Assembly: GCA_020725145.1 (NCBI GenBank)
Contig: DYFO01000010.1
Location: forward strand, 1 to 48,674
DNA from: Symbiobacterium thermophilum
GTDB lineage: Bacteria; Bacillota; Sulfobacillia; UBA995
DNA length: 48,674 bases
Direction of reading: 5' to 3'
Each line of letters opens with the position of its first letter. Positions within the stretch are counted from its first letter, which is position 1. The notes beneath the pieces were generated by a model. That model was not told the origin of the DNA and ran no database searches. It saw only the letters and a program-made list of their open reading frames with translations. Below, piece after piece: positions 23,944-42,501 of this stretch. Position numbers and translations under genes: made by a program.

Positions 23944-24137
23944 CGCGGTCCCCCTTTTGGCTACCTGTCCCGCATTCGTCGCCGGGTCCCGCTTTGCCTT
24001 CCGATCCCGCACGACTTGGCGTTACGCCTTCAATTCTGCCCCATGAAGGGACCGGGGCCACCCGGTCGAAACTTATCGGGAAGGCACGCGGCTCGCATGC
24101 TAACCGCGACGCCCGCACGATCGGGGAGGGAAGGGCA

Positions 24138-24698
24138 ATGGACGATCTTGCGATCATCACCGGGCAGGTGGAGCAAGCCGCCAGGCATCTTGGGGAGGTG
24201 GCAGGGCTTTCCCCCGGGCAGATCCTGGTGGTGGGCTGCAGCACCAGCGAGGTACGGGGACACAAGATCGGCACCGCTTCCAACCTCGAGGTGGCGGAGG
24301 CCGTCTACCGGGGCCTTGAGCCCGTGGTCCGCGAAAGGCAGCTTTTCCTGGCGGTGCAGTGCTGCGAGCACCTGAACCGGGCGCTGGTGGTCGAGCGGGC
24401 CGCGGCCGAACGGTACAACCTGGAAGTGGTGTGGGTGGTTCCCCACCTCCGCGCGGGCGGAGCCCTGGCCACGGTGGCGCTGGGAAAGCTCGACGACCCC
24501 GTGGTGGTGGAGGCGGTGGCCGCCCACGCGGGCATGGACATCGGTGACACCCTGATCGGAATGCACCTGCGCCGGGTGGCGGTGCCGGTGCGCTACGAAC
24601 CTCGGCGGGTGGGCCAGGCGCATCTTACCATGGCCCGCACGCGGCCTCGCCTCATCGGCGGCGAGCGGGCGCGCTACGCCCCGGACCCTGGCAAGTAA
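24138..24698 (+). CDS. UPF0340/TIGR01440 family protein (YwlG-like)
   Basis: The product has 186 aa. It shows the YwlG pattern: GQILVVGCSTSEVRGHKIGTASNLEVAEAVYRGL, AVQCCEHLNRALVVERAAAERYNLEVVWVVP and GMDIGDTLIGMHLRRVAVPVR. The family is near-universal in Firmicutes; its function is unknown and no cofactor motif is apparent beyond the conserved QCCEHLNR. ATG with GGGGAGGG upstream; the frame extends 48 codons upstream without a site. It is followed by a 206-base gap with the sigma-54 promoter of the lysine operon, so it is not part of that operon. Confidence 0.85.
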   Translation: MDDLAIITGQVEQAARHLGEVAGLSPGQILVVGCSTSEVRGHKIGTASNLEVAEAVYRGLEPVVRERQLFLAVQCCEHLNRALVVERAAAERYNLEVVWVVPHLRAGGALATVALGKLDDPVVVEAVAAHAGMDIGDTLIGMHLRRVAVPVRYEPRRVGQAHLTMARTRPRLIGGERARYAPDPGK

Positions 24699-24781: not shown

Positions 24782-24797
24782 TGCCGAATATTCGGCA
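24782..24797. promoter_or_regulatory. 16-bp palindrome, probable enhancer-binding-protein site
   Basis: TGCCGAATATTCGGCA is perfectly self-complementary over 16 bases. Its centre is about 50 bases upstream of the -24 GG of the sigma-54 promoter, on the expected side for an activator. It is more AT-rich in the middle than the surroundings. The regulator that would bind it is not encoded in the window. Confidence 0.65.
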
Positions 24798-24840: not shown

Positions 24841-24856
24841 TGGCACGGGCCTTGCA
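24841..24856 (+). promoter_or_regulatory. Sigma-54 (RpoN) -24/-12 promoter
   Basis: TGGCACGGGCCTTGCA fits the sigma-54 consensus TGGCACG-N4-TTGCA at every conserved base: GG at 24842-24843, ten bases, GC at 24854-24855. Transcription would begin near 24867, giving a leader of about 38 bases to the GTG of kdd at 24905, with its AGGAGGT at 24893-24899. I found no other match of this quality in the window. Confidence 0.85.
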
Positions 24857-24904
24857 TACAGATACGCGGCGAAGACTCCCTTTTGGGAACACAGGAGGTA
24901 TCGG

Positions 24905-25972
24905 GTGGACGGAAGAACTGGATGTCCCTACGGAAGTCACCGCAGCCTGGAGCCCCGGGGTTCGCTGCCCCAGCCCGCCTGGAAGCTCGACAACCGTCCG
25001 GAGATCTTCGACAACGAGCTGCTGATCCGGGTGGACACGCTGAACGTCGACGCCGCCAGCTTCACCCAGCTGGAGCAGGCGGCCGAGGCGAAGGCGGCCG
25101 AGGTCGGAGGAGAGGTCACCCATCACCTGGCCGACGCCATCCTGGACATCGTCAGGCAGCGCGGCAAGCTGCACAATCCGGTCACGGGTTCCGGTGGCAT
25201 GCTGCTGGGAACGGTGCGGGAGGTCGGGCCCCGGCATCCGGCGGCGGCCACGCTGGCTCCGGGTACCCGCCTGGCCACCCTGGTCTCGCTGTCGCTGACT
25301 CCCCTGCTACTTGAGCGCATCCGCCGGGTGGACCGCGAGCGCGACCAGGTGGAGGTCGACGGCTGGGCGGTGCTCTTCGCCTCCGGCATCTACGCCCCCA
25401 TCCCGCCCCATCTTCCCCAGACGCTTGCCCTGGCGGTGCTCGACGTGGCCGGCGCTCCCGCCCAGACGGCCCGGCTGGTGAGGCCGGGAGACGACGTGCT
25501 GGTGATCGGGGCCGGGGGCAAGTCGGGGCTTTTGTGTCTACACGAGGGGCGCAAGCGGGCCGGCGTCACCGGGCGGGTCTTTGCCATGGCCCACAGCCGG
25601 GCCTCGGCCCAGCGGGCGGAGGCGCTGGGACTGGCCGATGCGGTGTTCACCGCCGATGCCCGGGATCCGCTGGCGGCCCTGGAGGCCTTTCACCGGGCTT
25701 CGGGCGGACGCGATGCCGACGTCACCATCAACTGCGTCAACGTCCCCGGCACCGAGATGACCTCCGTGCTCTGCACCCGCGAAGGCGGCACCGTCTACTT
25801 CTTCAGCATGGCCACCAGCTTCACCGCCGCGGCGCTGGGGGCGGAGGGCATCGGCCGCGACGTCACCATGGTGATCGGCAACGGGTACGCCCGCGGGCAC
25901 GACCGCGTGGCCCTGGCCTGCCTTGAGGAAAACCCCCGCCTGCGCCAGATGTTCGAGGCCTGGTTCGCGTGA
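24905..25972 (+). CDS. kdd: L-erythro-3,5-diaminohexanoate dehydrogenase
   Basis: The product has 355 aa, close to the usual 345-350. The N-terminus CPYGSHRSLEPRGSLPQPAWKLD matches the start of known Kdd proteins, then ELLIRVDTLNVDAASFTQLEQA; the Rossmann motif is VLVIGAGGKSGLL, followed by a medium-chain-dehydrogenase-like C-terminus (VTINCVNVPGTEMTSVLCTREGGTVYFFSMATSF). Kdd oxidises 3,5-diaminohexanoate to 3-keto-5-aminohexanoate with NAD(P)+ and release of ammonia. GTG start chosen for its AGGAGGT 5-6 bases away and for homology. First gene of the lysine operon, 38 bases below the presumed transcription start. Confidence 0.93.
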   Translation: MDGRTGCPYGSHRSLEPRGSLPQPAWKLDNRPEIFDNELLIRVDTLNVDAASFTQLEQAAEAKAAEVGGEVTHHLADAILDIVRQRGKLHNPVTGSGGMLLGTVREVGPRHPAAATLAPGTRLATLVSLSLTPLLLERIRRVDRERDQVEVDGWAVLFASGIYAPIPPHLPQTLALAVLDVAGAPAQTARLVRPGDDVLVIGAGGKSGLLCLHEGRKRAGVTGRVFAMAHSRASAQRAEALGLADAVFTADARDPLAALEAFHRASGGRDADVTINCVNVPGTEMTSVLCTREGGTVYFFSMATSFTAAALGAEGIGRDVTMVIGNGYARGHDRVALACLEENPRLRQMFEAWFA

Positions 25973-25984
25973 AAGAGGTGTGAC

Positions 25985-27049
25985 GTGGAAAAGTCCGATC
26001 TCTTTGGGCTGGTGCGAACGGCGGGGCTGGGCAGCCTGGCCGTCGTGGGCACCGCCAGGGGAGTGGGCAAGACCTCGGTGCTCGGCCACCTGGCGCGCCG
26101 GGCCGAGGCCGAGGGGATCACGCTGGGGCTGGTGTCCGGCGGGCGTGAAGGCGACCGGCCCGACGGCGAGCACGAGCAGGGCCCGGCGGTGTACGTCCCG
26201 CGGTGGTGCCTGGTGGCCACCGCGGAGGGGGCGCTCGGCCAGGCCGATGCTTTCGTGGAGGTGCTGGAGGTGTTGCCCGCCGCGGGCCCCCTCGGGCACC
26301 TGGTGGTGGGCAGGATTCGCGAGCCCGGCAGGCTCCCGCTGGTGGGACCGCCGACCGCCAAGGGGCTGCAGGATGCGGTGCAGGCCCTCCGGCATCACGG
26401 CGCGGCGCTGGTGGTGGTGGAAGGCTCCGTGGATCGAGTGGCTTGTGCCGCACCGGCGGTGACCGAAGGCACGGTGGTGGCCACCGGGGCCGCGGTGGGA
26501 GGAGGGGTGGGCGAGGTGGCGGAGCGTACGCGCTTGCTACTGGGCTTCCTCGGGCTGCCGGCGGTGGAGGACCCCGGGCTGCGCGAGGCCGCCGCCCGGG
26601 CGCTAGGCCAGTGGCGGGTGGCGGTCATCGACGCCGACGGCCGTCCGCGCCCCCTCGCCCTGCGCACCGCGCTGGGAAGCGGCGGTACCGTCGCCGAGGC
26701 GGTGGACAAAGGCGCAAGGGCCTTGGTGATCGCGGGCGCCCTGGCGGACGGGGTGGCCGAAGCCCTGGCCGGGCTGCGGCCGCCCGCCTCGCGGGTGCTG
26801 GTGGTGGTGCCCGACGGGACTCACGTCTTCCTGGGAAGCCGGGCGCTGGCCCGCTTCACCCGGGCGGGCGGCAGGCTGGCGGTGCTTCACCCCATCAGGG
26901 TGGTTGCGGTCACCCTGAACCCTTTTGGACCCGACGGCGTGGCCCTCGACCCCGAGGCGCTGCTCGGGGAGGTGGCGCGGGCCGTGCACCCCGTTCCCGT
27001 CTTCGACCTGGTGCTGGGCCGGGCGCTGAACCTGGAGCCGGCGGCATGA
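25985..27049 (+). CDS. kamB: KamB, P-loop protein of the lysine aminomutase cluster
   Basis: The product has 354 aa. A Walker A motif G-T-A-R-G-V-G-K-T (residues 22-30) is followed by a typical strand-loop; LVVVEGSVDRVACAAP (about residue 140) and later VIAGALADG and VLVVVPDGTHVFLG are the recognisable cores. Position between kdd and the MutS-like gene in a kam operon identifies it as KamB. No enzymatic role has been proven for KamB; it is thought to help the B12-dependent lysine 5,6-aminomutase, by analogy with P-loop partners of B12 mutases. Start GTG, site AAGAGGTG. ATGA overlap with kamC. Confidence 0.82.
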   Translation: MEKSDLFGLVRTAGLGSLAVVGTARGVGKTSVLGHLARRAEAEGITLGLVSGGREGDRPDGEHEQGPAVYVPRWCLVATAEGALGQADAFVEVLEVLPAAGPLGHLVVGRIREPGRLPLVGPPTAKGLQDAVQALRHHGAALVVVEGSVDRVACAAPAVTEGTVVATGAAVGGGVGEVAERTRLLLGFLGLPAVEDPGLREAAARALGQWRVAVIDADGRPRPLALRTALGSGGTVAEAVDKGARALVIAGALADGVAEALAGLRPPASRVLVVVPDGTHVFLGSRALARFTRAGGRLAVLHPIRVVAVTLNPFGPDGVALDPEALLGEVARAVHPVPVFDLVLGRALNLEPAA

Positions 27050-28692
27050 ACCGGCTGCTTGTGCCCGGCACCGACAAGGGGATCGGGTTCGACCGCGTCT
27101 GGGCGATGGTGGAGCCGGCCAGCCCTTTCGGGCGTGAGGAGAAGGCGAAGGCCCGCCCCTTCCTGCCCGGTGACGAGCAGGTGCTGGAGGCCGAGCTCGA
27201 TCGGGTGGAGGCCGCGCGACGGGCTTGCGAGGCTGCCCCGGGGGTGCTGCGCGCGTTGCAGGGGAGGCTATCGCGTTGCCGTGACCTGCGGGGGTCGGTC
27301 CTGGCCGCCGGCCGGGGCGCCGTGCTGGATGTGGTGGAGCTTTACGAGCTGAAACGCTTCGCCTCGCTCTGCCGGGAGCTTGACGCACTGCTCGAGCGCT
27401 TTCCCTGGGAGCGGCCGGCAGACCTCAAGCTGGGCTCACTGGAGGCCTTGAGCCGCGCCCTCGATCCCCAGGGCCGCGGCGCGCCCGGTTTCTACGTGGA
27501 CGATGCGTTTTCACCGGTGCTGGCGCGGGTCAGGCGGCACAAGCGCGCGGTGGAGGCCACGCTCGAGCGGGAGCGGCGCCGACAGGCGAGCGCGGTCGCC
27601 GAGCGGCTCGGGCTGCCGGTTGATGCCGACGGCGAGATCGCGGTGTCGACCGCCGAGTCCGATCGGGTTCGGATGGCCCGCCGCGACGAGGATCTTCTCC
27701 TCGTCCGCGAGGCCGGAGGCCACCTGTACTTCCGGCTGCGTCCAGGGCCGCGTGCCCGCGAGGCCGAACGCGTACTGGCGGACCTGCGCGAGCGCGAGCG
27801 TCAGGAGGAGGGGAAGGTACGCGCGAAGTTGTCGTGCGCCGTGGCCGATGCCGCCCCAGTCCTGCTTGAGAACATGGGCGTGCTCGGCCGCCTCGATTTC
27901 CTGCTGGCGAGGGCCAGGCTCGCGCGCCAGGTCGGGGGTACGCGGCCGCGCGTCCTTCCGCCGGGCCAAGGAATCACCCTGCAGGACGCCCGACACGTGG
28001 CGGTGGAGCAGGACCTCGGTCGCCAGGGGCGCCGCTTCACTCCCCTGACCCTGGAGCTTGCCCCGGGGGCGGCGGTGTTGACCGGGCCCAACATGGGCGG
28101 CAAGACGGTCGCCCTGCAGACGCTGGGACTGGGCGTGGCGATGGCGCAGATGGGCCTGCTGGTGCCCGCAGCCCGCATGGAATGGTCGCTTGTGGCCTTC
28201 GTGTACTACGGTGGCCAGGAGGGACAAAGGCCCGGGCTGAGTGCCTTTGCGGCCGAGGTGAGCAGTCTTGCCGAGCCCCTGGGCCGGCGGGGAGAGGGCG
28301 GGCTACTGCTGCTGGACGAGTTCGCCAAGGGGACCAATCCCCGCGAGGGCAGGGCGCTGTCCGCGGCGGTCTTGCGGTGCCTGGCCACGGGGCCCAGCGT
28401 CTGCCTGCTGGCCACCCACCATTCGGGGTTGGCCGAGCTGGTGGGGACGCCGCACTGGCAGGTGCGCGGGCTTGGGCACGAGGTACTGACGCAGATCGGG
28501 CCCGGTGACGGGGTGCGCTGGCTGTACGAGCACATGGACTACCGGCTGGAGAAGGTATCTCCCCACAAGGAGACACCGCATGAGGCCTTGCTGGTGGCGC
28601 GGCTGCTCGGGCTGGACGAGCAGGTGTTGGCCTTCGCCGAGCGCTACCTCGGGCAGGGGTCGGAGAAGGGGGAGGGAAACCGACTTGACTGA
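27046..28692 (+). CDS. kamC: KamC, MutS-like ATPase of the lysine aminomutase cluster
   Basis: The product has 548 aa. The C-terminal half is a MutS domain V ATPase: Walker A T-G-P-N-M-G-G-K-T (346-354), Walker B LLLLDEF with D424/E425, then TNPREG and LATHHSGLAEL. The N-terminal half is helical, with coiled-coil-like segments of MutS clamp/lever type, but lacks the mismatch-binding domain. Such truncated MutS-like proteins in lysine-fermentation operons are called KamC; their role is unknown and probably not DNA repair. A dimeric clamp ATPase that remodels or reloads KamDE is a reasonable hypothesis. Overlaps kamB (ATGA) and kamD (8 bases). Confidence 0.88.
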   Translation: MNRLLVPGTDKGIGFDRVWAMVEPASPFGREEKAKARPFLPGDEQVLEAELDRVEAARRACEAAPGVLRALQGRLSRCRDLRGSVLAAGRGAVLDVVELYELKRFASLCRELDALLERFPWERPADLKLGSLEALSRALDPQGRGAPGFYVDDAFSPVLARVRRHKRAVEATLERERRRQASAVAERLGLPVDADGEIAVSTAESDRVRMARRDEDLLLVREAGGHLYFRLRPGPRAREAERVLADLRERERQEEGKVRAKLSCAVADAAPVLLENMGVLGRLDFLLARARLARQVGGTRPRVLPPGQGITLQDARHVAVEQDLGRQGRRFTPLTLELAPGAAVLTGPNMGGKTVALQTLGLGVAMAQMGLLVPAARMEWSLVAFVYYGGQEGQRPGLSAFAAEVSSLAEPLGRRGEGGLLLLDEFAKGTNPREGRALSAAVLRCLATGPSVCLLATHHSGLAELVGTPHWQVRGLGHEVLTQIGPGDGVRWLYEHMDYRLEKVSPHKETPHEALLVARLLGLDEQVLAFAERYLGQGSEKGEGNRLD

Positions 28693-30262
28693 GACATGCC
28701 GGGGACTGGCCTCGGGCCTGCGGCTTGACCCCGGACTGGTGAGGGAGGCCCGGGAGGACGCGCGGGCCATCGTGGACGAGGTCCTGGCGTACGTGCGCGA
28801 GCACACCACCACCAGCATGGAGCGGGCGGCGCTGCGCCTGGCGGGCGTGGAGGAGGTCGATGCCGAGGGCACGCCGCTGGTCAACCTGGTGGTCGACCGG
28901 CTGGGTGACAGGCTGGGCCACGGCGCCAGCTACTGGCTGTTCAACGCGGTGGCGGTGACCGGCCGCGAGCCCGAGGAGGTGGCGCGCGCGGTGGCCGAGG
29001 GCGAGCTCGACCTCGGCCGGCTGCCCGCCGCCGACCCCGCGCGGGTGCGGCAGCTGGGCACCGGGGCCGCCCGCCTTGCCATGGAGGCCATCGACGCCCG
29101 GCGCCGCGAGCGTGACGTCATGGTGGAGCGTCTGGGACAGTCGCCCAGCCCCTGGCTATACGTGATCGTGGCCACCGGGAACATCTACGAGGACGTCGTT
29201 CAGGCACGGTCGGCCGCGCGCATGGGCGCGGACGTGATCGCCGTCATCCGCTCCACGGGTCAGAGCCTCCTCGACTACGTGCCACACGGGGCGACCACCG
29301 AGGGCTATGCCGGCACCTATGCCACGCAGGAGAACTTCCGCATCATGCGGCGGGCGCTCGACGAGGTGTCCGAAGAACTCGGCCGCTACGTCAGGCAGGT
29401 GAACTACGCCTCGGGACTGTGTATGCCCGAGATAGCGGCCATGGGCGCCCTGGAACGCCTGGACATGATGCTGAACGACGCCATGTACGGCATCCTGTTC
29501 CGGGACATAAACCCCCGGCGCACCTTGATCGACCAGTACCTGTCCCGTCGCATCAGCGCGCGGGCCGGCCATATCATCAACACCGGCGAGGACAACTACC
29601 TGACCACCGACGATGCCTTCACGGCGGCACACACCGTGATCGCCTCGCAGTTCATCAACGAGGAGTTCGCGCTGCGGGCGGGGCTGGCCCGCGAGCAGCT
29701 GGGTCTTGGCCATGCCTTCCAGATGGACCCCGACCTGCCCGACGGCCTGCTCCACGAGATCGCCCAGGCTGCCCTGGTCCGTGCGCTTTTCCCCGGTTGT
29801 CCCATCAAGTTCATGCCGCCCACCAAGTACAAGACGGGCAACATCTTCCGGGCCCACCTGCAGGACGGTCTTTTCAACCTGGTAGGAGTGCTTACCGGGC
29901 AGGGCATACAGCTTTTGGGCATGCCCACCGAGGCCATCCACACTCCGTTCGTCTCCGACCGTTACCTGGCGCTGGAGAACGCCCGCTACGTGATGAACAA
30001 CGCGCGGCACCTGGGGGAGGAGTTCCTGCTGCGGCCGGACGGCCGCATCGCCCGCCGCGCCCGCGAGGTGCTGGAGCGGGCGGTGGCCATGCTGCGGCAG
30101 ATCCGCGACATCGGGCTTTGGCAGGCCCTGGAGGAAGGCATGTTCGCCGCCGTCAGGCGCGACCGCGACGGCGGCAAGGGCCTGGAGGGAGTGGTGGCGC
30201 GCGAGCCCGACTACTACAACCCGTTCCTCGACGAACTGGAAGGAGGCCGGTGCGGTGCATGA
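28685..30262 (+). CDS. kamD: Lysine 5,6-aminomutase alpha subunit
   Basis: The product has 525 aa, near the typical 516-520. It forms the PLP-barrel subunit of the B12- and PLP-dependent mutase that moves the terminal amino group of D-lysine or L-beta-lysine to carbon 5. Characteristic stretches are NLVVDRLGDRLGHGASYWLFNAV, IRSTGQSLLDYVPHGATTEGYAGTYATQENFRIMR, GLCMPEIAAMGALERLDMMLNDAMYGILFRD and IKFMPPTKYKTGNIF. The TTG start has GGAGGG 8 bases upstream and lies within the end of kamC. kamE follows with an 8-base overlap, consistent with equal subunit production. Confidence 0.95.
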   Translation: MTETCRGLASGLRLDPGLVREAREDARAIVDEVLAYVREHTTTSMERAALRLAGVEEVDAEGTPLVNLVVDRLGDRLGHGASYWLFNAVAVTGREPEEVARAVAEGELDLGRLPAADPARVRQLGTGAARLAMEAIDARRRERDVMVERLGQSPSPWLYVIVATGNIYEDVVQARSAARMGADVIAVIRSTGQSLLDYVPHGATTEGYAGTYATQENFRIMRRALDEVSEELGRYVRQVNYASGLCMPEIAAMGALERLDMMLNDAMYGILFRDINPRRTLIDQYLSRRISARAGHIINTGEDNYLTTDDAFTAAHTVIASQFINEEFALRAGLAREQLGLGHAFQMDPDLPDGLLHEIAQAALVRALFPGCPIKFMPPTKYKTGNIFRAHLQDGLFNLVGVLTGQGIQLLGMPTEAIHTPFVSDRYLALENARYVMNNARHLGEEFLLRPDGRIARRAREVLERAVAMLRQIRDIGLWQALEEGMFAAVRRDRDGGKGLEGVVAREPDYYNPFLDELEGGRCGA

Positions 30263-31019
30263 GGCAGACCCGGTGGTACGCCCTTACGGTGACCGGCGCG
30301 ACGACGGCGCCGTCCAGGTCAGCTTCACCCTGCCGGTGCGGGCCGGGGAACTGGCCAGCGAGGCCGCCCGCGCGTTGATGCGAAAGATGGGGTTGGCTTC
30401 CCCTCAGGTGGTCTTTTCCCGCGACCTCGGGGAGGGTCTGACCTTCTTCGTGGGTTACGGCAGGTGCACGCATCAGGTGGACCTGGCGACGCTCGAGGTT
30501 CCACGGCTGCAGGGCGAGGTGATGGACTTCGGGGCGGTGAACAGGTTCGTGCGCGAGCGCCTCGGCCGCAAGGTGGTGGTGGTGGGGGCGTGCACGGGAA
30601 CCGACGCCCACACCCTGGGGCTCGACGCCATCCTGAGCATGAAGGGTTTCGCCGGCGATTACGGGCTGGAACGCTACCCCGAGTTCCGGGTGGTCAACCT
30701 GGGCAGCCAGGTGCCCAACGAGACGCTGGTGGCACGGGCGGTGGAAGAGGGGGCGGACGCGATCCTGGTCTCGCAGGTGGTGACGATGCGGGATGTGCAC
30801 CTTGCCAACCTGACCCGGCTGGCCGAACTCCTGGAGGCCGAGGGCGTCCGCGAGCGCGTGGTGCTCATCGCGGGCGGACCGCGCATCTCGCACGAGCTGG
30901 CGGTGGAGTTGGGTTTCGATGCCGGGTTCGGCCCGGGGACGACCCCTTCCCAGGTGGCGTCCTTCATCGTGAAGGAACTGGACCGACGCCGGGTAACCGG
31001 CTTCCGTGACGGGAGGTGA
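30255..31019 (+). CDS. kamE: Lysine 5,6-aminomutase beta subunit (B12-binding)
   Basis: The product has 254 aa. The cobalamin-binding D-x-H-x-x-G is D117-A-H119-T-L-G122 and the Lys that forms the internal aldimine with PLP is K130 (SMKGFAGDYGLERYPE), 11 residues after the His; the same spacing is known in the characterised enzyme (H133/K144). The C-terminal Rossmann half contains VSQVVTMRDVHLANLTRLAELLEAEG. GTG start with AGGAGG inside kamD. Catalytically complete as far as visible. Confidence 0.95.
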   Translation: MHEADPVVRPYGDRRDDGAVQVSFTLPVRAGELASEAARALMRKMGLASPQVVFSRDLGEGLTFFVGYGRCTHQVDLATLEVPRLQGEVMDFGAVNRFVRERLGRKVVVVGACTGTDAHTLGLDAILSMKGFAGDYGLERYPEFRVVNLGSQVPNETLVARAVEEGADAILVSQVVTMRDVHLANLTRLAELLEAEGVRERVVLIAGGPRISHELAVELGFDAGFGPGTTPSQVASFIVKELDRRRVTGFRDGR

Positions 31020-31024
31020 GGGGC

Positions 31025-31429
31025 TTGGCAGAACACGAGGCGGTGTTGAGGTTCCGCGTAGGCCAGGCGGACGCGCACTACGCCGGCAACCTCGTGGCCG
31101 GCGGGCGCATCCTCTCCTGGTTCGGAGACGCTGCCACCGAGCTTTGTATTCGTAGCGACGGTGACGAGGGCCTGTTCGTGGCCTACGATCTGGTGGAATT
31201 CCGGGCACCGGTGTACGCGGGGGACTTCCTGGAGATCCGTGCCCGCATCACCCGCATGGGTAACACCTCGCGGGCCATGAGCTTCGAGGCCTGGAAGTAC
31301 GTCCGCTCGCTGGCCCATGATGGGGGCACGTCGGCCGCCGATCTGCTCGAGCCGCCGGTGCTGGTGGCCCGGGCTTCGGGGACCTGTGTGGTGCCTGCGG
31401 CAAGGCAGCGGAAGGGTGGGGGAAGTTGA
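31025..31429 (+). CDS. kal: 3-aminobutyryl-CoA ammonia-lyase
   Basis: The product has 134 aa and a single hotdog fold: AHYAGNLVAGGRILSWFGDAATEL helix, then YDLVEFRAPVYAGDFLEIRARITRMG and FEAWKYVR. Kal removes ammonia from L-3-aminobutyryl-CoA to give crotonyl-CoA. Length and operon position fit; hotdog proteins of other function are similar, so context carries weight. The TTG at 31025 has GGGAGGTGA 5 bases upstream; a GTG 9 bases earlier overlaps the kamE stop and is less likely. Confidence 0.87.
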   Translation: MAEHEAVLRFRVGQADAHYAGNLVAGGRILSWFGDAATELCIRSDGDEGLFVAYDLVEFRAPVYAGDFLEIRARITRMGNTSRAMSFEAWKYVRSLAHDGGTSAADLLEPPVLVARASGTCVVPAARQRKGGGS

Positions 31430-32244
31430 ACAAGCTTTGGATCACCGCCGCGCTGGTGGGGGCGGAAATCACCCGTGCCCAGCAGCCTTTTTTGCCCCTG
31501 ACGCCGGAGGAGATCGCCGAGGAGGCCGCCCGCGCGCGTGAGGCGGGAGCGGCCATCGTGCACCTGCACGTGCGCGACCCCGAGGGCAATCCCACCCAGG
31601 ACCGCGACACCTACGCCCGGGTGATCGAGCGCATCCGCGAGCGCACCGACGTGATCGTTCAGGTGTCCACGGGCGGCGCCATCGGTATGAGCGCCGAGGA
31701 ACGCGCGCAGCCGCTCGCGCTGCGTCCGGAGATGGCCACCCTGACCTGCGGGTCGGTGAACTTCGGCGACGGGGTCTTCCTCAACCCCCCGGACCTCATC
31801 GAGCACCTGGCGCGGACCATGCTTGAGCTGGGCATCAAGCCCGAGATCGAGGTGTTCGAGGCGGGGATGATCGCCACCGCGATCTCGCTGGTCAAGCGGG
31901 GCCTCGTGCGCCCGCCGCTGCACTTCGATCTGGTGATGGGCGTGCCCGGCGGCATCCCCGCCACCGCCGCCAACCTTGTGCACCTGGTAGCGTCGCTGCC
32001 GGCGGACAGCACCTGGAGCGTTGCGGCCGTGGGCCGACACGAGCTGCCGCTGGGGGCCATGGCCATCGCCATGGGCGGTCACGTGCGGGTGGGTTTCGAG
32101 GACAACATCTACTACCGCAAGGGCGAACTGGCCACGAGCAACGCTCAGCTCGTCGCCAGAATGGCCCGCATCGCCCGCGAGCTCGAACGACCCTGCGCCA
32201 CGCCCGATGAGGTGAGGGAGGCCCTGGGCATCAGGCCGTGCTAG
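31426..32244 (+). CDS. kce: 3-keto-5-aminohexanoate cleavage enzyme
   Basis: The product has 272 aa, the normal length. It is a zinc TIM barrel of the BKACE family: metal ligands H46 and H48 in IVHLHVRDPEG and E225 in RVGFEDNIYY, plus VSTGGAIGMSAEER, VNFGDGVF and GRHELPLGAMAIAMGGHVRVG. It condenses 3-keto-5-aminohexanoate with acetyl-CoA to acetoacetate and 3-aminobutyryl-CoA. TTG start overlaps the kal stop (TTGA). Last gene of the operon; its 3' end overlaps the convergent minus-strand gene by 14 bases, leaving no room for a separate terminator. Confidence 0.94.
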   Translation: MNKLWITAALVGAEITRAQQPFLPLTPEEIAEEAARAREAGAAIVHLHVRDPEGNPTQDRDTYARVIERIRERTDVIVQVSTGGAIGMSAEERAQPLALRPEMATLTCGSVNFGDGVFLNPPDLIEHLARTMLELGIKPEIEVFEAGMIATAISLVKRGLVRPPLHFDLVMGVPGGIPATAANLVHLVASLPADSTWSVAAVGRHELPLGAMAIAMGGHVRVGFEDNIYYRKGELATSNAQLVARMARIARELERPCATPDEVREALGIRPC

Positions 32245-36266: not shown

Positions 36267-37778
36267 TTACACGCCGTACAGCTGCCCGAATTTCTCCCGC
36301 AGGTAGCGCAAATAAGCGGCGGCGTCAAGCGGCCGGCCGGTGGCGCGCCGGATCAGCTCCAGCGGCTCGAACCTGGCGCCTTGGGCGTGCACGCGCTGCC
36401 GCATCCATTCCCCGAGGTCCTGGAAGTGACCGCGGGTGAAGGCCGCCCCGAGGTCGGGGCACTCGGCGCCGGCGGCCTCATAGAGCTGGGCGGCCATCAC
36501 GTTGCCCAGCGTGTAGCCCTGAAAGTCGCCGCCGAAGCTTCCCGACCAGTGGATATCCTGCAAGATCCCCCGGAGGTCGTCGGGGGGGACCACGCCGAGA
36601 TACTCCTGCATCTTATGGTTCCAGGCCTCTTTGAGGTCGGCGACCGCCAGCCGGTCTTCCAGCACCTCCTGCTCCAGGTCGAAGCGGAGCATCACGTGCA
36701 GGTTGTAGGTGACCTCGTCGGCCTCGGTACGGATGAAGGACGGGGTCACGCGGTTGACCGCCCGGTACAGGTCCTCCGGGGTCCAAGCCCCTAGCTGCTC
36801 GGGGAAATACCGGGCGGCACGCGGCAGGAAGAACCGCCAGAAGGCCAGCGAGCGGCCGACGAAGTTCTCCCACAGCCTTGACTGCGACTCGTGCACGCCC
36901 GCGGAAGCGCTGGCGCACAGTACCGTGCGGTCGAACTGCCGCGGCAGACCCTGCTCGTACAGGCCGTGGCCCGCCTCGTGCAGGAGCGAGTAAAAGCAGT
37001 TGGTGAAGTCGTGGGGGTCGATGCGGGTGGTGATACGGGTGTCGTCAGGCGAGAAGCTGGTGGTGAAGGGGTGCACGCTCAGATCCACGCGGCCCCGGCG
37101 TTGGAAGTCAAAGCCTATGGCGGCCACCGCCTCCTTGCCCATGGCCAGCTGAAGGTCGGGGTCGAAGGGCTGCCGCAGGATGGCGTCCTCGTCACCCGGG
37201 GACTTGGCGGCGATGGCCCGGGCCAGCGGCACCAGCGCCTTGCGCAGTTCGTCGAAGAGCGAGCGGCAGAAGGCGGTGTCCACGCCCGGTTCCGCGAGGT
37301 CGATCAGGGGGTCGAGCGGGCTCAGGGTATACCCCAGTGCCGAAGCGATCTCGCGCGACAGCCTGACCGTCCGTTCCAGCGCGGGCCGGAAGACCTCGAA
37401 GCGGTTGGCCTCCCGCGCCTTCAGCCAGGCCTCGTGGCCGGCGGCGGCGGCACGGGCGCGCTCGGCGACCAGCTCGGCCGGTATGCGGGTTGCCTTGTCG
37501 TGGTGGCGGCGGGCCACGCGCACCATGCTGGCCTCGTCGCCGTCGGGCGGAAGCGAGCTTTCGTACTCGCGCAGGGCTTCAAGGAGCTCGCCGAATTCGG
37601 GGCTGGTGAGCCGCGAATGTGCCAGGCGGCGCACGGTGGCCAGCTGCTCGCCCCGGGCGGCGGCACCTCCCGGGGGCATGCAGGTGAGGCGATCCCAAAG
37701 CAAGAGCGCGGCCGTGCGGTGCAGGTCGGCGATCTCGGACAGGCGTTCCAGCAGCTTGCGGTAGGCCTCGGGCTGCAC
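36267..37778 (-). CDS. M32 (Taq) carboxypeptidase
   Basis: The product has 503 aa, full family length. Zinc ligands H267 and H271 in HEAGH, third ligand E297 in HESQSRLWEN; also DRLTCMPPGGAAARG near the N-terminus and PSFIRTEADEVTYNLHVMLRF. It removes C-terminal residues from peptides in the cytoplasm. GTG start with GGAGGGAGG upstream. It follows the mttB-like genes by 17 bases in the same direction and may be co-transcribed. Confidence 0.93.
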   Translation of the reverse strand: MQPEAYRKLLERLSEIADLHRTAALLLWDRLTCMPPGGAAARGEQLATVRRLAHSRLTSPEFGELLEALREYESSLPPDGDEASMVRVARRHHDKATRIPAELVAERARAAAAGHEAWLKAREANRFEVFRPALERTVRLSREIASALGYTLSPLDPLIDLAEPGVDTAFCRSLFDELRKALVPLARAIAAKSPGDEDAILRQPFDPDLQLAMGKEAVAAIGFDFQRRGRVDLSVHPFTTSFSPDDTRITTRIDPHDFTNCFYSLLHEAGHGLYEQGLPRQFDRTVLCASASAGVHESQSRLWENFVGRSLAFWRFFLPRAARYFPEQLGAWTPEDLYRAVNRVTPSFIRTEADEVTYNLHVMLRFDLEQEVLEDRLAVADLKEAWNHKMQEYLGVVPPDDLRGILQDIHWSGSFGGDFQGYTLGNVMAAQLYEAAGAECPDLGAAFTRGHFQDLGEWMRQRVHAQGARFEPLELIRRATGRPLDAAAYLRYLREKFGQLYGV

Positions 37779-37795
37779 GGGTGATACCTCCCTCC

Positions 37796-39259
37796 TTACC
37801 GATCCGGTCTCAGGTGGGCGAGGAAGTGCGGCGGGGGACTGACCTGGCGGCGGCGGAACACCTCCCGCATCGCCGCGTCCAGTGCCTCGCGGCGCGGGCC
37901 TTGCAGACGCCGGGGCGGACGCGCCAGCCGCGAGGCCGCCTCCTCGCGTGCCTGCTGCCAGCTGTCACGGGCCCCCTCCGCGTGCCAGGTCCGGCGGTCA
38001 CGGCGGTCCAGCACCGGGCCGGGCAGCCGGAACTCCGAGCGGAAGTGCCGCCGGGTGTGGGAGCAGGCGAGGTAGTTGCCTCCGGGACCGAGCTCGGCGA
38101 TCAACTCTGAGGCCAGCGCCTCGGGATCCAGGCGCAAACCGCGTGTCAGGCCGAGCGCCTGACCGCAGATCTCATGGTCGATCACCAGTTTCTCCAGGCT
38201 GTGGGTGAGCGCGAACTCCAGCATCCCGGGTCCGGAGACCAGGTTGATGCCTCCCAGCACGGTCAGCACCGCCCCGGCCGCCGTCTCCGCCCCCGCCTGG
38301 GCGTCGACCACCTTGCCGTCGCTGAGCGCGGCGTAGGTATGCGTGGGCAGACGGTACCATCTGCCCATCTCCGCGGCGGCCAGGCCCATAAGCGTTGCCT
38401 CCATCGCCGCCATGGCGGAGGTCCCGTAGCGCATGTCGAACACCACCGGGGCGCCTCCCCAGATCACCCGGGCTCCGGGCTGGGCCACTTGCGCCAGCAC
38501 CAGCCCGCTCAGGTTCTCGACCGTGTGCAAAAGGAGCGAGCCGGCCAGGGTCACCGGCGAGGCCGCCCCCGGCATGGGCATGGAGATGAAGTTCAGGGGC
38601 ACACCCGCCCGGGCTCCCTCGAGGATGTTCATCGCCGCCGGATGCGCCCATTTCAGCGGCGGCGAGGGACAGGCGTCGAAGACGGCGAGGGGCCGGGCCG
38701 CGAGCGCGTCCCGCGAGCCGGCCACCGCCGCCAGCAGGTCCAGGAGGTCATGGAGCCCCTCGGCGCTGAAGGCTCCCGTCACCACCGGCTTGGGGGAGGT
38801 GGCGAGGGCAACCCAGAGGCGGTAGCTGTCGCCCACCTGCCGCGGGACGTCGTGGCACACCAGCGCCGTCGACTGCAGGGCGATGTGCTCCAGGGTGTCG
38901 TTCAAGGCCAGCAGGGTTTCGAGGTCGGAAGCGGTGGACTCGCGGACGGTGCGGCCGTCAGACTCCAGCCAGCGGGTGGCGCAGGAACCGGGGTTGAACC
39001 AGGTTCCCGGCTCGCCGAGCACCGCCACCCGGCCGCCCTCACGGTCGTGGAGCGGGACGTGGGGTGGCGCGGCCGCGAGCGCTTGCTCGACCAGGTTCCG
39101 CGGCATGCGGACGCGGTCGCCGTCCACGCGGGCTCCTGCCGCCGCCAGCACCTTTACCGCGGGCGGGGCAGCGATGCGCACGCCGACTTCCTCGAGCAAG
39201 GCCAGGGCGGCGGCGTGCAGCCGTTCCGGTCCGTCGGGCGGCAGAAGTCCCAGCGTCAT
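37796..39259 (-). CDS. MttB-family (non-pyrrolysine) methyltransferase 1
   Basis: The product has 487 aa. MttB superfamily features: LHAAALALLEEVGVRIAAPPAVKVLAAAGARVD at the N-terminus, GTWFNPGSCATRWLES, MPMPGAASPVTLAGSLLLHTVENLSG, and GIN-type LTVLGGINLVSGPGMLEF. The gene stops with TAA and contains no in-frame TAG, so it is not a pyrrolysine trimethylamine enzyme but one of the glycine betaine/carnitine/proline betaine type group. It would transfer a methyl group from a quaternary amine to the cobalt of the corrinoid protein encoded upstream. ATGA overlap with MttB 2. Confidence 0.88.
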   Translation of the reverse strand: MTLGLLPPDGPERLHAAALALLEEVGVRIAAPPAVKVLAAAGARVDGDRVRMPRNLVEQALAAAPPHVPLHDREGGRVAVLGEPGTWFNPGSCATRWLESDGRTVRESTASDLETLLALNDTLEHIALQSTALVCHDVPRQVGDSYRLWVALATSPKPVVTGAFSAEGLHDLLDLLAAVAGSRDALAARPLAVFDACPSPPLKWAHPAAMNILEGARAGVPLNFISMPMPGAASPVTLAGSLLLHTVENLSGLVLAQVAQPGARVIWGGAPVVFDMRYGTSAMAAMEATLMGLAAAEMGRWYRLPTHTYAALSDGKVVDAQAGAETAAGAVLTVLGGINLVSGPGMLEFALTHSLEKLVIDHEICGQALGLTRGLRLDPEALASELIAELGPGGNYLACSHTRRHFRSEFRLPGPVLDRRDRRTWHAEGARDSWQQAREEAASRLARPPRRLQGPRREALDAAMREVFRRRQVSPPPHFLAHLRPDR

Positions 39260-40743
39260 GGGGTGCCCTCCAGTTCGCGCGCGGCGGCGGCCAGGATGCG
39301 TTTCCATTCGCGGCGCACCCCCGGATCCACTTCGCGCGGGCGATGCTCGGCGAGGATCTTCGCCGCAAGGTCGGTGGCCGCCTCGTACGCTCCCCTGCGT
39401 CCCGCCTTCTCCCACGCGTCGTACGGTGAGCGGTCTACCACGGTAGGCCTCCAGATCTCGCGCAGCCATCGCAGCGTATGGGGGTGGGACAGGTAGTTGC
39501 CGCCCACGCCCACCTCGTGGATCACCTCGGTGGCCAGCGTCTCGGCGTCGACCCGGATACCCTCGGCCACCTTGGCCACCACCGAGTAGATCTCCGCATC
39601 CATGATGAGCTGCTGGTAGGAAAAGATCTTGGAGCCGTTCAGCATGCCGGCGCCCGTCAGCATGGCGGTGCCGGTGAGCACCGGCATCAGCGTGGAAAGC
39701 GTGTTGTCCAGCGCCGCCTGCCAGTCGGGGAGCTTGGCTCCGGTGGCCATCGCTCCCATGGAAAGCGGAAGTCCATAGAACCGGCATATCTGATTGAAGG
39801 CTCCGCCCAGGAGGTAGTCCTCGGGCGAGCCGCCGGTATAGCCACCGGTGCGCAGGTCCATCACCGTGGGGGCGGCGGCGAAGAACACCGGCGCTCCGGG
39901 GTAGGCGAGCTGAACGAGCACCAGCGGGGCAAGCGCGTCCACGGTGGTGACCACCAGGTTGCCGGCCAGCGTGGCCGGGGCGGTGGCACAGGACATGGGC
40001 ATGGGCATGAAACCCGTGGGGATGCCGTGCTCGGCGGCCACCAGCGCCGCCTCCAGGCTCCCGCCGTCCTGGCCCAGAGGGTCCAGGGCGCACTGCATCA
40101 CCGAGAAAATGGGGCGACGGCGTAGTTCCTCAAGGCTGCCGACCTCCGCCAGGGCCATCTCCACGCAGTAACGGGCTATCGGCGCGGAGATGATGGTTTC
40201 CGGTTGCACGTGCTTGGAGGTCCCCAGGAAGGCCGCCTCAAGCTCGTGAAGCGGCCGCGTGGCCGCCGGGGTGTCCTGGGCACTGACGGTAGGACCCCAG
40301 TAAAAGGCGATAGCGTCGAGGTAATCGGCGACCAGCGCCGAGCGGTAGACGTCGTCGCGGGTGGAACGCCGCCGCTCGCCGCCTGCAAGTTCGTAGACCT
40401 CGATGCCGCAGCCGTCGGTGGACAGGTAGCAGTGCTCGCCGTCGAGTTCGAGGTTGTCGGCGGGGTCGCGTGCTCCCAGCACAAAGCGGCGGGGGGCACA
40501 GGAGATGGCCTTCATGGCCACGTCCGGCGGGATGCAGGCTATTTGCCGTTCGAAATCCACCCGGCACCCGGCGTCGGCCAGGATCGCAAGCGCCCGGGCG
40601 GAGGGGAACCGCACGCCCGTCCTGGCCATCACCTCCAGGGCGGCCTGGTGGACGGCCCGCACCGCGTCGGGCGACAGTATCTCCAGCGAAAGCCCGGGCC
40701 GCAGCCGGCGGACGGGGCGGCGCGGAGGCAGGCGGTCAGCCAC
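39256..40743 (-). CDS. MttB-family (non-pyrrolysine) methyltransferase 2
   Basis: The product has 495 aa. Family features: LSPDAVRAVHQAALEVMARTGVRFPSARALAILADAG, CYLSTDGCGIEVYEL, PMPMSCATAPATLAGNLVVTTVDALAPL, and LTGAGMLNGSKIFSYQQLIMDAEIY. It is clearly divergent from the neighbouring copy, so the two probably act on different substrates or form a heteromer. Stop TGA, no in-frame TAG. GTG start overlaps the corrinoid gene stop by 8 bases. A longer open frame to 40803 has no supporting site and is rejected. Confidence 0.88.
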   Translation of the reverse strand: MADRLPPRRPVRRLRPGLSLEILSPDAVRAVHQAALEVMARTGVRFPSARALAILADAGCRVDFERQIACIPPDVAMKAISCAPRRFVLGARDPADNLELDGEHCYLSTDGCGIEVYELAGGERRRSTRDDVYRSALVADYLDAIAFYWGPTVSAQDTPAATRPLHELEAAFLGTSKHVQPETIISAPIARYCVEMALAEVGSLEELRRRPIFSVMQCALDPLGQDGGSLEAALVAAEHGIPTGFMPMPMSCATAPATLAGNLVVTTVDALAPLVLVQLAYPGAPVFFAAAPTVMDLRTGGYTGGSPEDYLLGGAFNQICRFYGLPLSMGAMATGAKLPDWQAALDNTLSTLMPVLTGTAMLTGAGMLNGSKIFSYQQLIMDAEIYSVVAKVAEGIRVDAETLATEVIHEVGVGGNYLSHPHTLRWLREIWRPTVVDRSPYDAWEKAGRRGAYEAATDLAAKILAEHRPREVDPGVRREWKRILAAAARELEGTP

Positions 40744-41410
40744 ACCGCTCCACCCCCACCAGGCGCCGGGCCAGTTCCACCGCGGCGGTGGCGTCCTCGG
40801 CATAACCGTCCGCCCCGATCTCCTCCGCCCACGACGCGGTGACGGGGGCTCCGCCCACCATCACCCGCACCGGCAGCCCGGCTTGCCGCACCCGCGCGAT
40901 CACCTCGCGCTGCCGCTCCATGGTGGTGGTCAGCAAGGCCGACAGGCCCAGGATATCGGCCTGGAGCTCGCGGGCCCGCTCGAGGAAGGTGCCCGCCGGC
41001 ACGTCGACCCCCAGGTCGACGACCTCGAAACCGGCCGCTCCCAGCAGCGACCCCACGATGCGCTTGCCGATCTCGTGGATGTCGCCCTCGACGGTGCCGA
41101 GCACCACCCGGCCCAGCGCCTGGCGCCGCGAGCGCAGGGCCGCCAGCCGGGGCTCGAGCACCTGCAGTGCCCGTTGCACCGCTTCGGCGGCGGCCACCAG
41201 TTCGGGCAGGAACTTCTCGCCCGTTCCGAACTCCACGCCCACCTGTTGCAGGGCTTTCATGAAGCCCAAATCAAGACATTCCAGGGGATCCAGGCCTGCT
41301 TCCAGGGCGCGCTCGGCCACAGCCGCCGCCCGGTGCACCTCTCCCTCGTAGACCACCCGGTACATCTCCTCAAGCAAACTGCCGCGATCCACGGTTCCCA
41401 TTCCTCCCAT
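40736..41410 (-). CDS. Corrinoid protein (MtbC/MttC type)
   Basis: The product has 224 aa. The helical cap domain (LLEEMYRVVYEGEVHRAAAVAERALEAGLDPLECLDLGFMKALQQVG) precedes the cobalamin-binding domain with D110-I-H112-E-I-G115 and LSALLTTTM, VMVGGAPVT. It carries the methyl group between an MttB-type methyltransferase and a tetrahydrofolate methyltransferase. The start shown is ATG 41410; the GTG at 41392 has GGAGGA at better distance and is a good alternative. The THF methyltransferase and the RACo-type reactivator are not in the window. Confidence 0.92.
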   Translation of the reverse strand: MGGMGTVDRGSLLEEMYRVVYEGEVHRAAAVAERALEAGLDPLECLDLGFMKALQQVGVEFGTGEKFLPELVAAAEAVQRALQVLEPRLAALRSRRQALGRVVLGTVEGDIHEIGKRIVGSLLGAAGFEVVDLGVDVPAGTFLERARELQADILGLSALLTTTMERQREVIARVRQAGLPVRVMVGGAPVTASWAEEIGADGYAEDATAAVELARRLVGVERCG

Positions 41411-41414
41411 CCTG

Positions 41415-42386
41415 TCAGTCTACCGTCCCGCGCTCCTCGACCACCAGCCGGCATTGCCCGGCGTCCACGAAGGCCGTTACCCCCAGGGGGAGGGTGGCCA
41501 TGTCCTTGCCGTGACCCAGCGGCAGCCCGTAGAACGAGGGTATGCCCAGCGGGACGATCAGCTCGTGCAGCACATCCTCAAGGCTGAGGGTGCCCTCGGG
41601 GAAGGCCGGCCTCAGCTCCTGATACTCGCAATCCACGCATTCGCCCACCACGATGGCGGCCGCCTCCTGGAGTTTGCCCGCATTGAGCAGACAGGTAAGG
41701 TGCCAGTCCACCAGGTAAGGTTCGGCATGCACCTCCTCGAAGAACAGGATGCGGCCCCGCGTCTCGATCTCCCAGGGCGTACCCAGCGACGAGGTCAAAA
41801 GCGACAGGCAGCCTCCCACCAGCTCACCACGGGCCTGGCCGTCAACCAGGGTATAGACGTACGGCCCGCGCGGCGAGGGACGGACCTCGCCCAGTGGCTG
41901 CTCGCCCATGAGCGCCCGGAAAAGGTATTCCTGGCGGTAAGCCCCGAGTTCCTCCGGGTTGTAGCGCATCACCCCCGGCCCGTGGAAGGTGACCAGGTTG
42001 GCCAGTCGTCCGATGGCCAGGTGCAGGGCGGTGATGTCGGAGAAGCCCACGAACACCTTGGGGTTGGCGGCGATGACCCCGAAGTCCAGGTGACGGACAA
42101 GCCTGCCCGAGCCGTATCCACCCTGGGTGCACAGCACCGCCCGCACCGAAGGGTCGGCGAACATGCGCACAAGATCCTCCGCGCGTTCGGCATCGGTACC
42201 GGCGAGGTAGCCATGCCGGCGCTCGAGGTGCTTTCCCCGCACGACCTCGAAGCCCCATTCCTCAAGCGTCCGGATACCGCGCTCGAGGGCGGTGCGCTGG
42301 TAGTGGGGACTGGCGGGCGCGACCACTCCCACCCGATCCCCGGGGCGCAGTCGCGGGGGACGTAGCTTGCCCGAGGCAGCTCGCAT
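41415..42386 (-). CDS. S66 peptidase (LD-carboxypeptidase/MccF-like)
   Basis: The product has 323 aa. Catalytic Ser S116 in FVGFSDITALH, Glu in FFEEVHAEPYLVDWHL (E217/E218) and His H292 in LGHGKDMATLPLG form the Ser-Glu-His triad of S66, with CTQGGYGSGRL upstream. Members cleave L,D-peptide bonds in muropeptides or amides such as in microcin C. Here it stands 4 bases ahead of the corrinoid protein gene, so a role in releasing the methylated substrate from a peptide or amide precursor is possible (inference). ATG start with GGAGG 8 bases away. Confidence 0.9.
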   Translation of the reverse strand: MRAASGKLRPPRLRPGDRVGVVAPASPHYQRTALERGIRTLEEWGFEVVRGKHLERRHGYLAGTDAERAEDLVRMFADPSVRAVLCTQGGYGSGRLVRHLDFGVIAANPKVFVGFSDITALHLAIGRLANLVTFHGPGVMRYNPEELGAYRQEYLFRALMGEQPLGEVRPSPRGPYVYTLVDGQARGELVGGCLSLLTSSLGTPWEIETRGRILFFEEVHAEPYLVDWHLTCLLNAGKLQEAAAIVVGECVDCEYQELRPAFPEGTLSLEDVLHELIVPLGIPSFYGLPLGHGKDMATLPLGVTAFVDAGQCRLVVEERGTVD

Positions 42387-42501
42387 GCACGTTTCCTCCT
42401 TCGGGCCGGAATGGCGAGCAAGAAGCGTGCCGGCGCGGCGGTGATGCCCCATACCCGTTTGCTGCCGGGTTTTCGGCAGGCGGGGCCATCCTCCTGCACG
42501 C

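Follow-up and report, generated by a model that had tools for sequence, protein, structure and literature searches.

The element TGGCACGGGCCTTGCA, at positions 24841-24856 on the + strand of the window (the whole 48,674-nucleotide stretch of Symbiobacterium thermophilum DNA analysed here; assembly GCA_020725145.1, contig DYFO01000010.1), is very probably a genuine sigma-54 promoter that switches on the genes for lysine-to-butyrate fermentation. We have high confidence in a scheme in which this operon, headed by kdd, and the separately located kamA are both activated via sigma-54 by a KamR-like bEBP, which is encoded next to kamA and would be bound to a palindrome.

The element has the form TGGCAC-N5-TTGCA and, in a pattern search of the window, matches TGGCACN5TTGCW with no mismatch. 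Scored with a PWM derived from the sigma-54 promoters published for B. thuringiensis (PMC4428206), it reaches 20.1 of a possible 20.4. The GG (24842-24843) and the GC (24854-24855) are 10 nt apart, and their positions place the predicted transcription start at about 24866-24867. The first-pass annotation had given the sequence, coordinates and strand of the element correctly, including the GG-N10-GC arrangement, and its expected start near 24867 agrees with that predicted from the GG and GC positions. It also placed the element about 48 bases before the kdd ribosome binding site (AGGAGG, 24894-24899, + strand); 48 bases in fact separate the motif end from the GTG start codon of kdd at 24905, whereas the ribosome binding site is only 37 nt away. 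The promoter sits on the sense strand of a 206-bp intergenic gap between kdd and its upstream neighbour, a DUF436 gene on the same strand (23994-24698). Neither a sigma-70-type match nor a terminator was found in this gap. No Rfam family matched anywhere in the window at gathering scores, which rules out a known riboswitch or other known RNA.

The genes downstream had been described as a lysine fermentation operon, and the protein family assignments bear this out: KDD, KamB, KamC, KamD, KamE, KAL and KCE are NCBIfam equivalogs above cut-off, with Pfam confirming them in part. The order is kdd-kamB-kamC-kamD-kamE-kal-kce, running from 24905 to 32244 on the + strand. It comprises kdd (L-erythro-3,5-diaminohexanoate dehydrogenase, 24905-25972; NF052381, 238 bits against a cut-off of 200); kamB (lysine 5,6-aminomutase reactivase subunit, 25985-27049; NF052386); kamC (MutS-like reactivase ATPase, 27046-28692; NF052383) and kamD (lysine 5,6-aminomutase alpha subunit, 28685-30262; NF052384 and PF09043), the start codons of both being approximate; kamE (lysine 5,6-aminomutase beta subunit, 30255-31019; NF052385); kal (3-aminobutyryl-CoA ammonia lyase, 31016-31429; NF052388); and kce (3-keto-5-aminohexanoate cleavage enzyme, 31426-32244; NF052387).

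Upstream of the promoter lies a perfect 16-bp palindrome, TGCCGAATATTCGGCA (24782-24797), which is a candidate upstream activator site (UAS). Measured between starts, it precedes the promoter by 59 bp, and its centre is about 77 bp before the predicted transcription start, a distance from the -24/-12 element that is plausible for such a site. The same motif is found at homologous positions in relatives, for example upstream of kdd in Anaerovirgula multivorans (TGCCGAAAATTCGGCA) and Alkaliphilus serpentinus (TGCCTAAAATTCGGCA), and a variant, TGCCTAGTTTTCGGCA, lies upstream of the bEBP gene itself. In two genomes of the window's family, at L214 (G003:C111:1123-1138) and L210 (G002:C32:2129-2144), the nearest palindrome found on the kdd contig is some 1.1-1.4 kb upstream of kdd and not within 150 bp; these could be remote enhancers or sites serving another gene.

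To define conservation, we scored the 73 named kdd loci that had enough upstream sequence, and called a -24/-12 element where the best score was at least 13. Such an element was present at 15/15 loci where a related bEBP closely precedes kdd and at 7/58 loci where none does (P 1e-10, indicative only). Among controls, 31 of 2000 shuffled upstreams and 2 of 80 antisense strands reached the same score. Of the seven loci with the element and no such bEBP, one belongs to a genome of the window's family, two carry a similar bEBP at another place in the locus, and three have a different type of bEBP upstream. The palindrome was examined in 104 distinct kdd upstreams, allowing up to 3 mismatches to TGCCSAAWWTTSGGCA. 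It occurred in 26/43 of those with a -24/-12 element and in 0/61 of those without (P about 2e-13; as related sequences are not independent, this and the value above are only indicative), and in every one of the 26 it was located upstream of the promoter. With the four loci that had suggested the motif left out, the palindrome was present in 22/39, against 2.5% of shuffles. Within the class, kdd is present in 40 of 154 genomes, with relatives of the bEBP adjoining it in many, and by the B. thuringiensis matrix the -24/-12 element before kdd is strong or near-maximal at most loci. Two genomes of the window's family have a weaker site before kdd (14.0 and 14.3), one of them with no palindrome within 420 bp.

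The bEBPs beside palindrome-bearing kdd genes mostly have a common recognition helix, PRQTLQ; PRQT helices occur in further bEBPs too, so the helix is not proven to be specific to lysine genes. At three loci (L125, L127 and L171), kdd has a strong -24/-12 element and no palindrome, together with a different bEBP of about 700 aa that has an unrelated recognition helix; these lineages may have swapped the regulator. The widespread gene order is bEBP-kdd-kamA-kamB-kamC-kamD-kamE. In the genome of the window the bEBP gene and kamA are together elsewhere and kdd keeps its palindrome and promoter, so control would be exerted in trans. The kal-kce-kdd-kamA orders of Bacteroidales and Acetoanaerobium contain kdd without the promoter; no -24/-12 element was found upstream of kdd in Acetoanaerobium noterae, which is related to the classical lysine fermenter A. 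sticklandii. The comparison originally drawn with Clostridia-like bacteria holds loosely, the named kdd relatives including Candidatus Fermentithermobacillaceae and other Bacillota. One genome (G030) has two similar bEBP genes about 20 kb apart (C1:823419-824825 and 842805-844178), one of them immediately before kdd; this may be a duplication that controls a second operon.

The genome has a single rpoN gene encoding all three sigma-54 domains (AID, core-binding and DNA-binding), which removes the lack of such a gene as an objection to the promoter. Exactly one true bEBP was found in the genome, which is about 94.5% complete, so that another could be missing. Three weaker Sigma54_activat matches were rejected as bEBPs, being two Lon proteases and a Clp ATPase. 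The bEBP is a protein of 480 aa with PAS_4, Sigma54_activat, AAA lid and HTH_8 domains and the GAFTGA motif, and its best NCBIfam match is PrdR; at 355 bits against a cut-off of 795 it is not a PrdR equivalog (NF041552). Its gene is on another contig than kdd (C66:70172-71614, - strand), where it immediately precedes kamA in the same orientation. KamA, lysine 2,3-aminomutase, is the first enzyme of the pathway (L043:6841-8133 on the same contig, - strand; TIGR03820 above cut-off). Between the two genes, overlapping the 3' end of the bEBP gene, is CGGCACGGAATTTGCA, with one mismatch to the -24/-12 pattern and a weaker score with the B. thuringiensis matrix (14.0 of 20.4). The kamA promoter has no full palindrome adjoining it, the nearest being about 1.5 kb off, upstream of the bEBP gene. 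The layout of bEBP gene, -24/-12 element and kamA recurs in two genomes of the same family, where the sites are CTGGCAAGGGAATTGCA and CTGGCAAGACAATTGCA. At the level of sequence, the proposal that the operon is under enhancer-dependent control is thus supported by the rpoN gene, by the one bEBP beside kamA and by a promoter that is conserved before kdd, mostly beside a related bEBP.

Could the -24/-12 element nevertheless be a chance match, with kdd expressed from a sigma-70 promoter that has escaped recognition or by transcription reading through from the DUF436 gene? Pattern searches over the 2.07 Mb genome returned TGGCACGGGCCTTGCA as the only match to TGGCACN5TTGCW with 0 mismatches, where about 1.9 perfect matches are expected by chance from Markov shuffles of this 70% G+C sequence. 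Allowing up to 1 mismatch gave 56 matches, compared with 68 for a reversed control pattern. The motif alone is therefore at no more than chance level and we rejected it as significant by itself; the earlier description of a textbook sigma-54 motif is right in that the consensus is fully matched, but the match alone is insufficient evidence. Read-through would also be compatible with the orientation of the DUF436 gene and with the gap having no recognised terminator. However, an intergenic position on the sense strand, combined with a palindrome 59 bp before the element and with conservation among relatives, is not chance. Of 104 distinct loci, 43 keep the element before kdd, it is tied to an adjoining bEBP, and the palindrome is common to relatives, whilst a sigma-70 reading finds no resembling sequence in the gap. 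We consider a chance match very improbable.

We give equally little credence to the idea that the promoter is a sigma-54 promoter served by some other bEBP, missing from the assembly, with the palindrome belonging to another regulator. The incompleteness of the genome would leave room for such a protein, and the bEBP of about 700 aa with another HTH at L125, L127 and L171 illustrates that kdd can be accompanied by a different activator. Against this, the sole bEBP found adjoins kamA and its relatives adjoin kdd; moreover, the palindrome co-occurs with bEBPs of the kamA-adjoining type and is also upstream of that bEBP's own gene.

Our preferred reading is accordingly that of a sigma-54 promoter controlled by the kamA-adjoining bEBP. 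The sequence itself shows the elements, the genes, their conservation and the joint occurrence of bEBP, palindrome and -24/-12 element; from these we infer binding, activation, a transcription start and a signal. An oligomer of the bEBP would bind the palindrome, and DNA looping would bring it to the closed E-sigma54 complex at the promoter. Once the PAS domain senses its signal, probably lysine or a lysine-derived metabolite, ATP hydrolysis would open the promoter, from which kdd-kamB-kamC-kamD-kamE-kal-kce would be transcribed. The same bEBP would also activate kamA via the -24/-12 element between the two genes.

A further, weak -24/-12 site, CGGCACGCTTCTTGCT, is tentatively placed in the window at 42417-42432 (- strand; PWM 13.2), with a UAS-like palindrome, TGCCGAAAACCCGGCA, equally tentative, 46 bp upstream of it (42463-42478, - strand). 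Behind both elements is an operon (36267-42478, - strand) encoding an S66 peptidase, a corrinoid protein, two MttB-family methyltransferases and an M32 carboxypeptidase, an arrangement that suggests possible co-control with lysine fermentation. A search of the closest S66 homologues did not find the paired -24/-12 element and palindrome, and the other three genomes of the family yielded no S66 homologue. It is a speculative, rather doubtful extension that sigma-54 here serves one activator only, with a regulon of the kdd operon, kamA and the corrinoid/MttB operon that would co-induce demethylation of methylated amines, perhaps methylated lysine, with lysine fermentation.

Lysine-to-butyrate fermentation thereby gains a specific predicted regulator and a candidate binding site, TGCCSAA-WW-TTSGGCA, which recurs in several Bacillota lineages including the cultured A. 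multivorans and A. serpentinus. With apparently just one bEBP, the genome also offers a simple example of near single-purpose sigma-54. We found no description of sigma-54 control of the kdd operon in the open-access literature. A 2019 reconstruction of sigma-54 regulation in Clostridiales has 39 bEBP groups in its Table 1, none for lysine (PMC6615313), and a 2025 survey has lysine 2,3-aminomutase among the sigma-54-linked genes of Bacilli (PMC12316311). The PAS-containing bEBP KamR of B. thuringiensis HD73 is described as activating kamA through a sigma-54 promoter (PMC4428206, citing Zhang et al. 2014). As far as that description goes, the likeness is in a PAS-bEBP gene beside kamA, in the same direction, and a -24/-12 element before kamA. 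The difference, on the same description, is that the B. thuringiensis promoter serves the kamA of an L-lysine metabolic operon, with sigma-K acting later, whereas the targets here would include the anaerobic fermentation operon kdd-kamBCDE-kal-kce. Another parallel is with PrdR (proline) and OrdR (ornithine), where an amino-acid fermentation operon similarly has a dedicated bEBP, a UAS and a -24/-12 promoter (PMC6615313), although the bEBP described here falls far under the PrdR cut-off. The kdd operon is thus a modestly new case, under a known mode of control, of an amino-acid catabolic operon with a dedicated bEBP.
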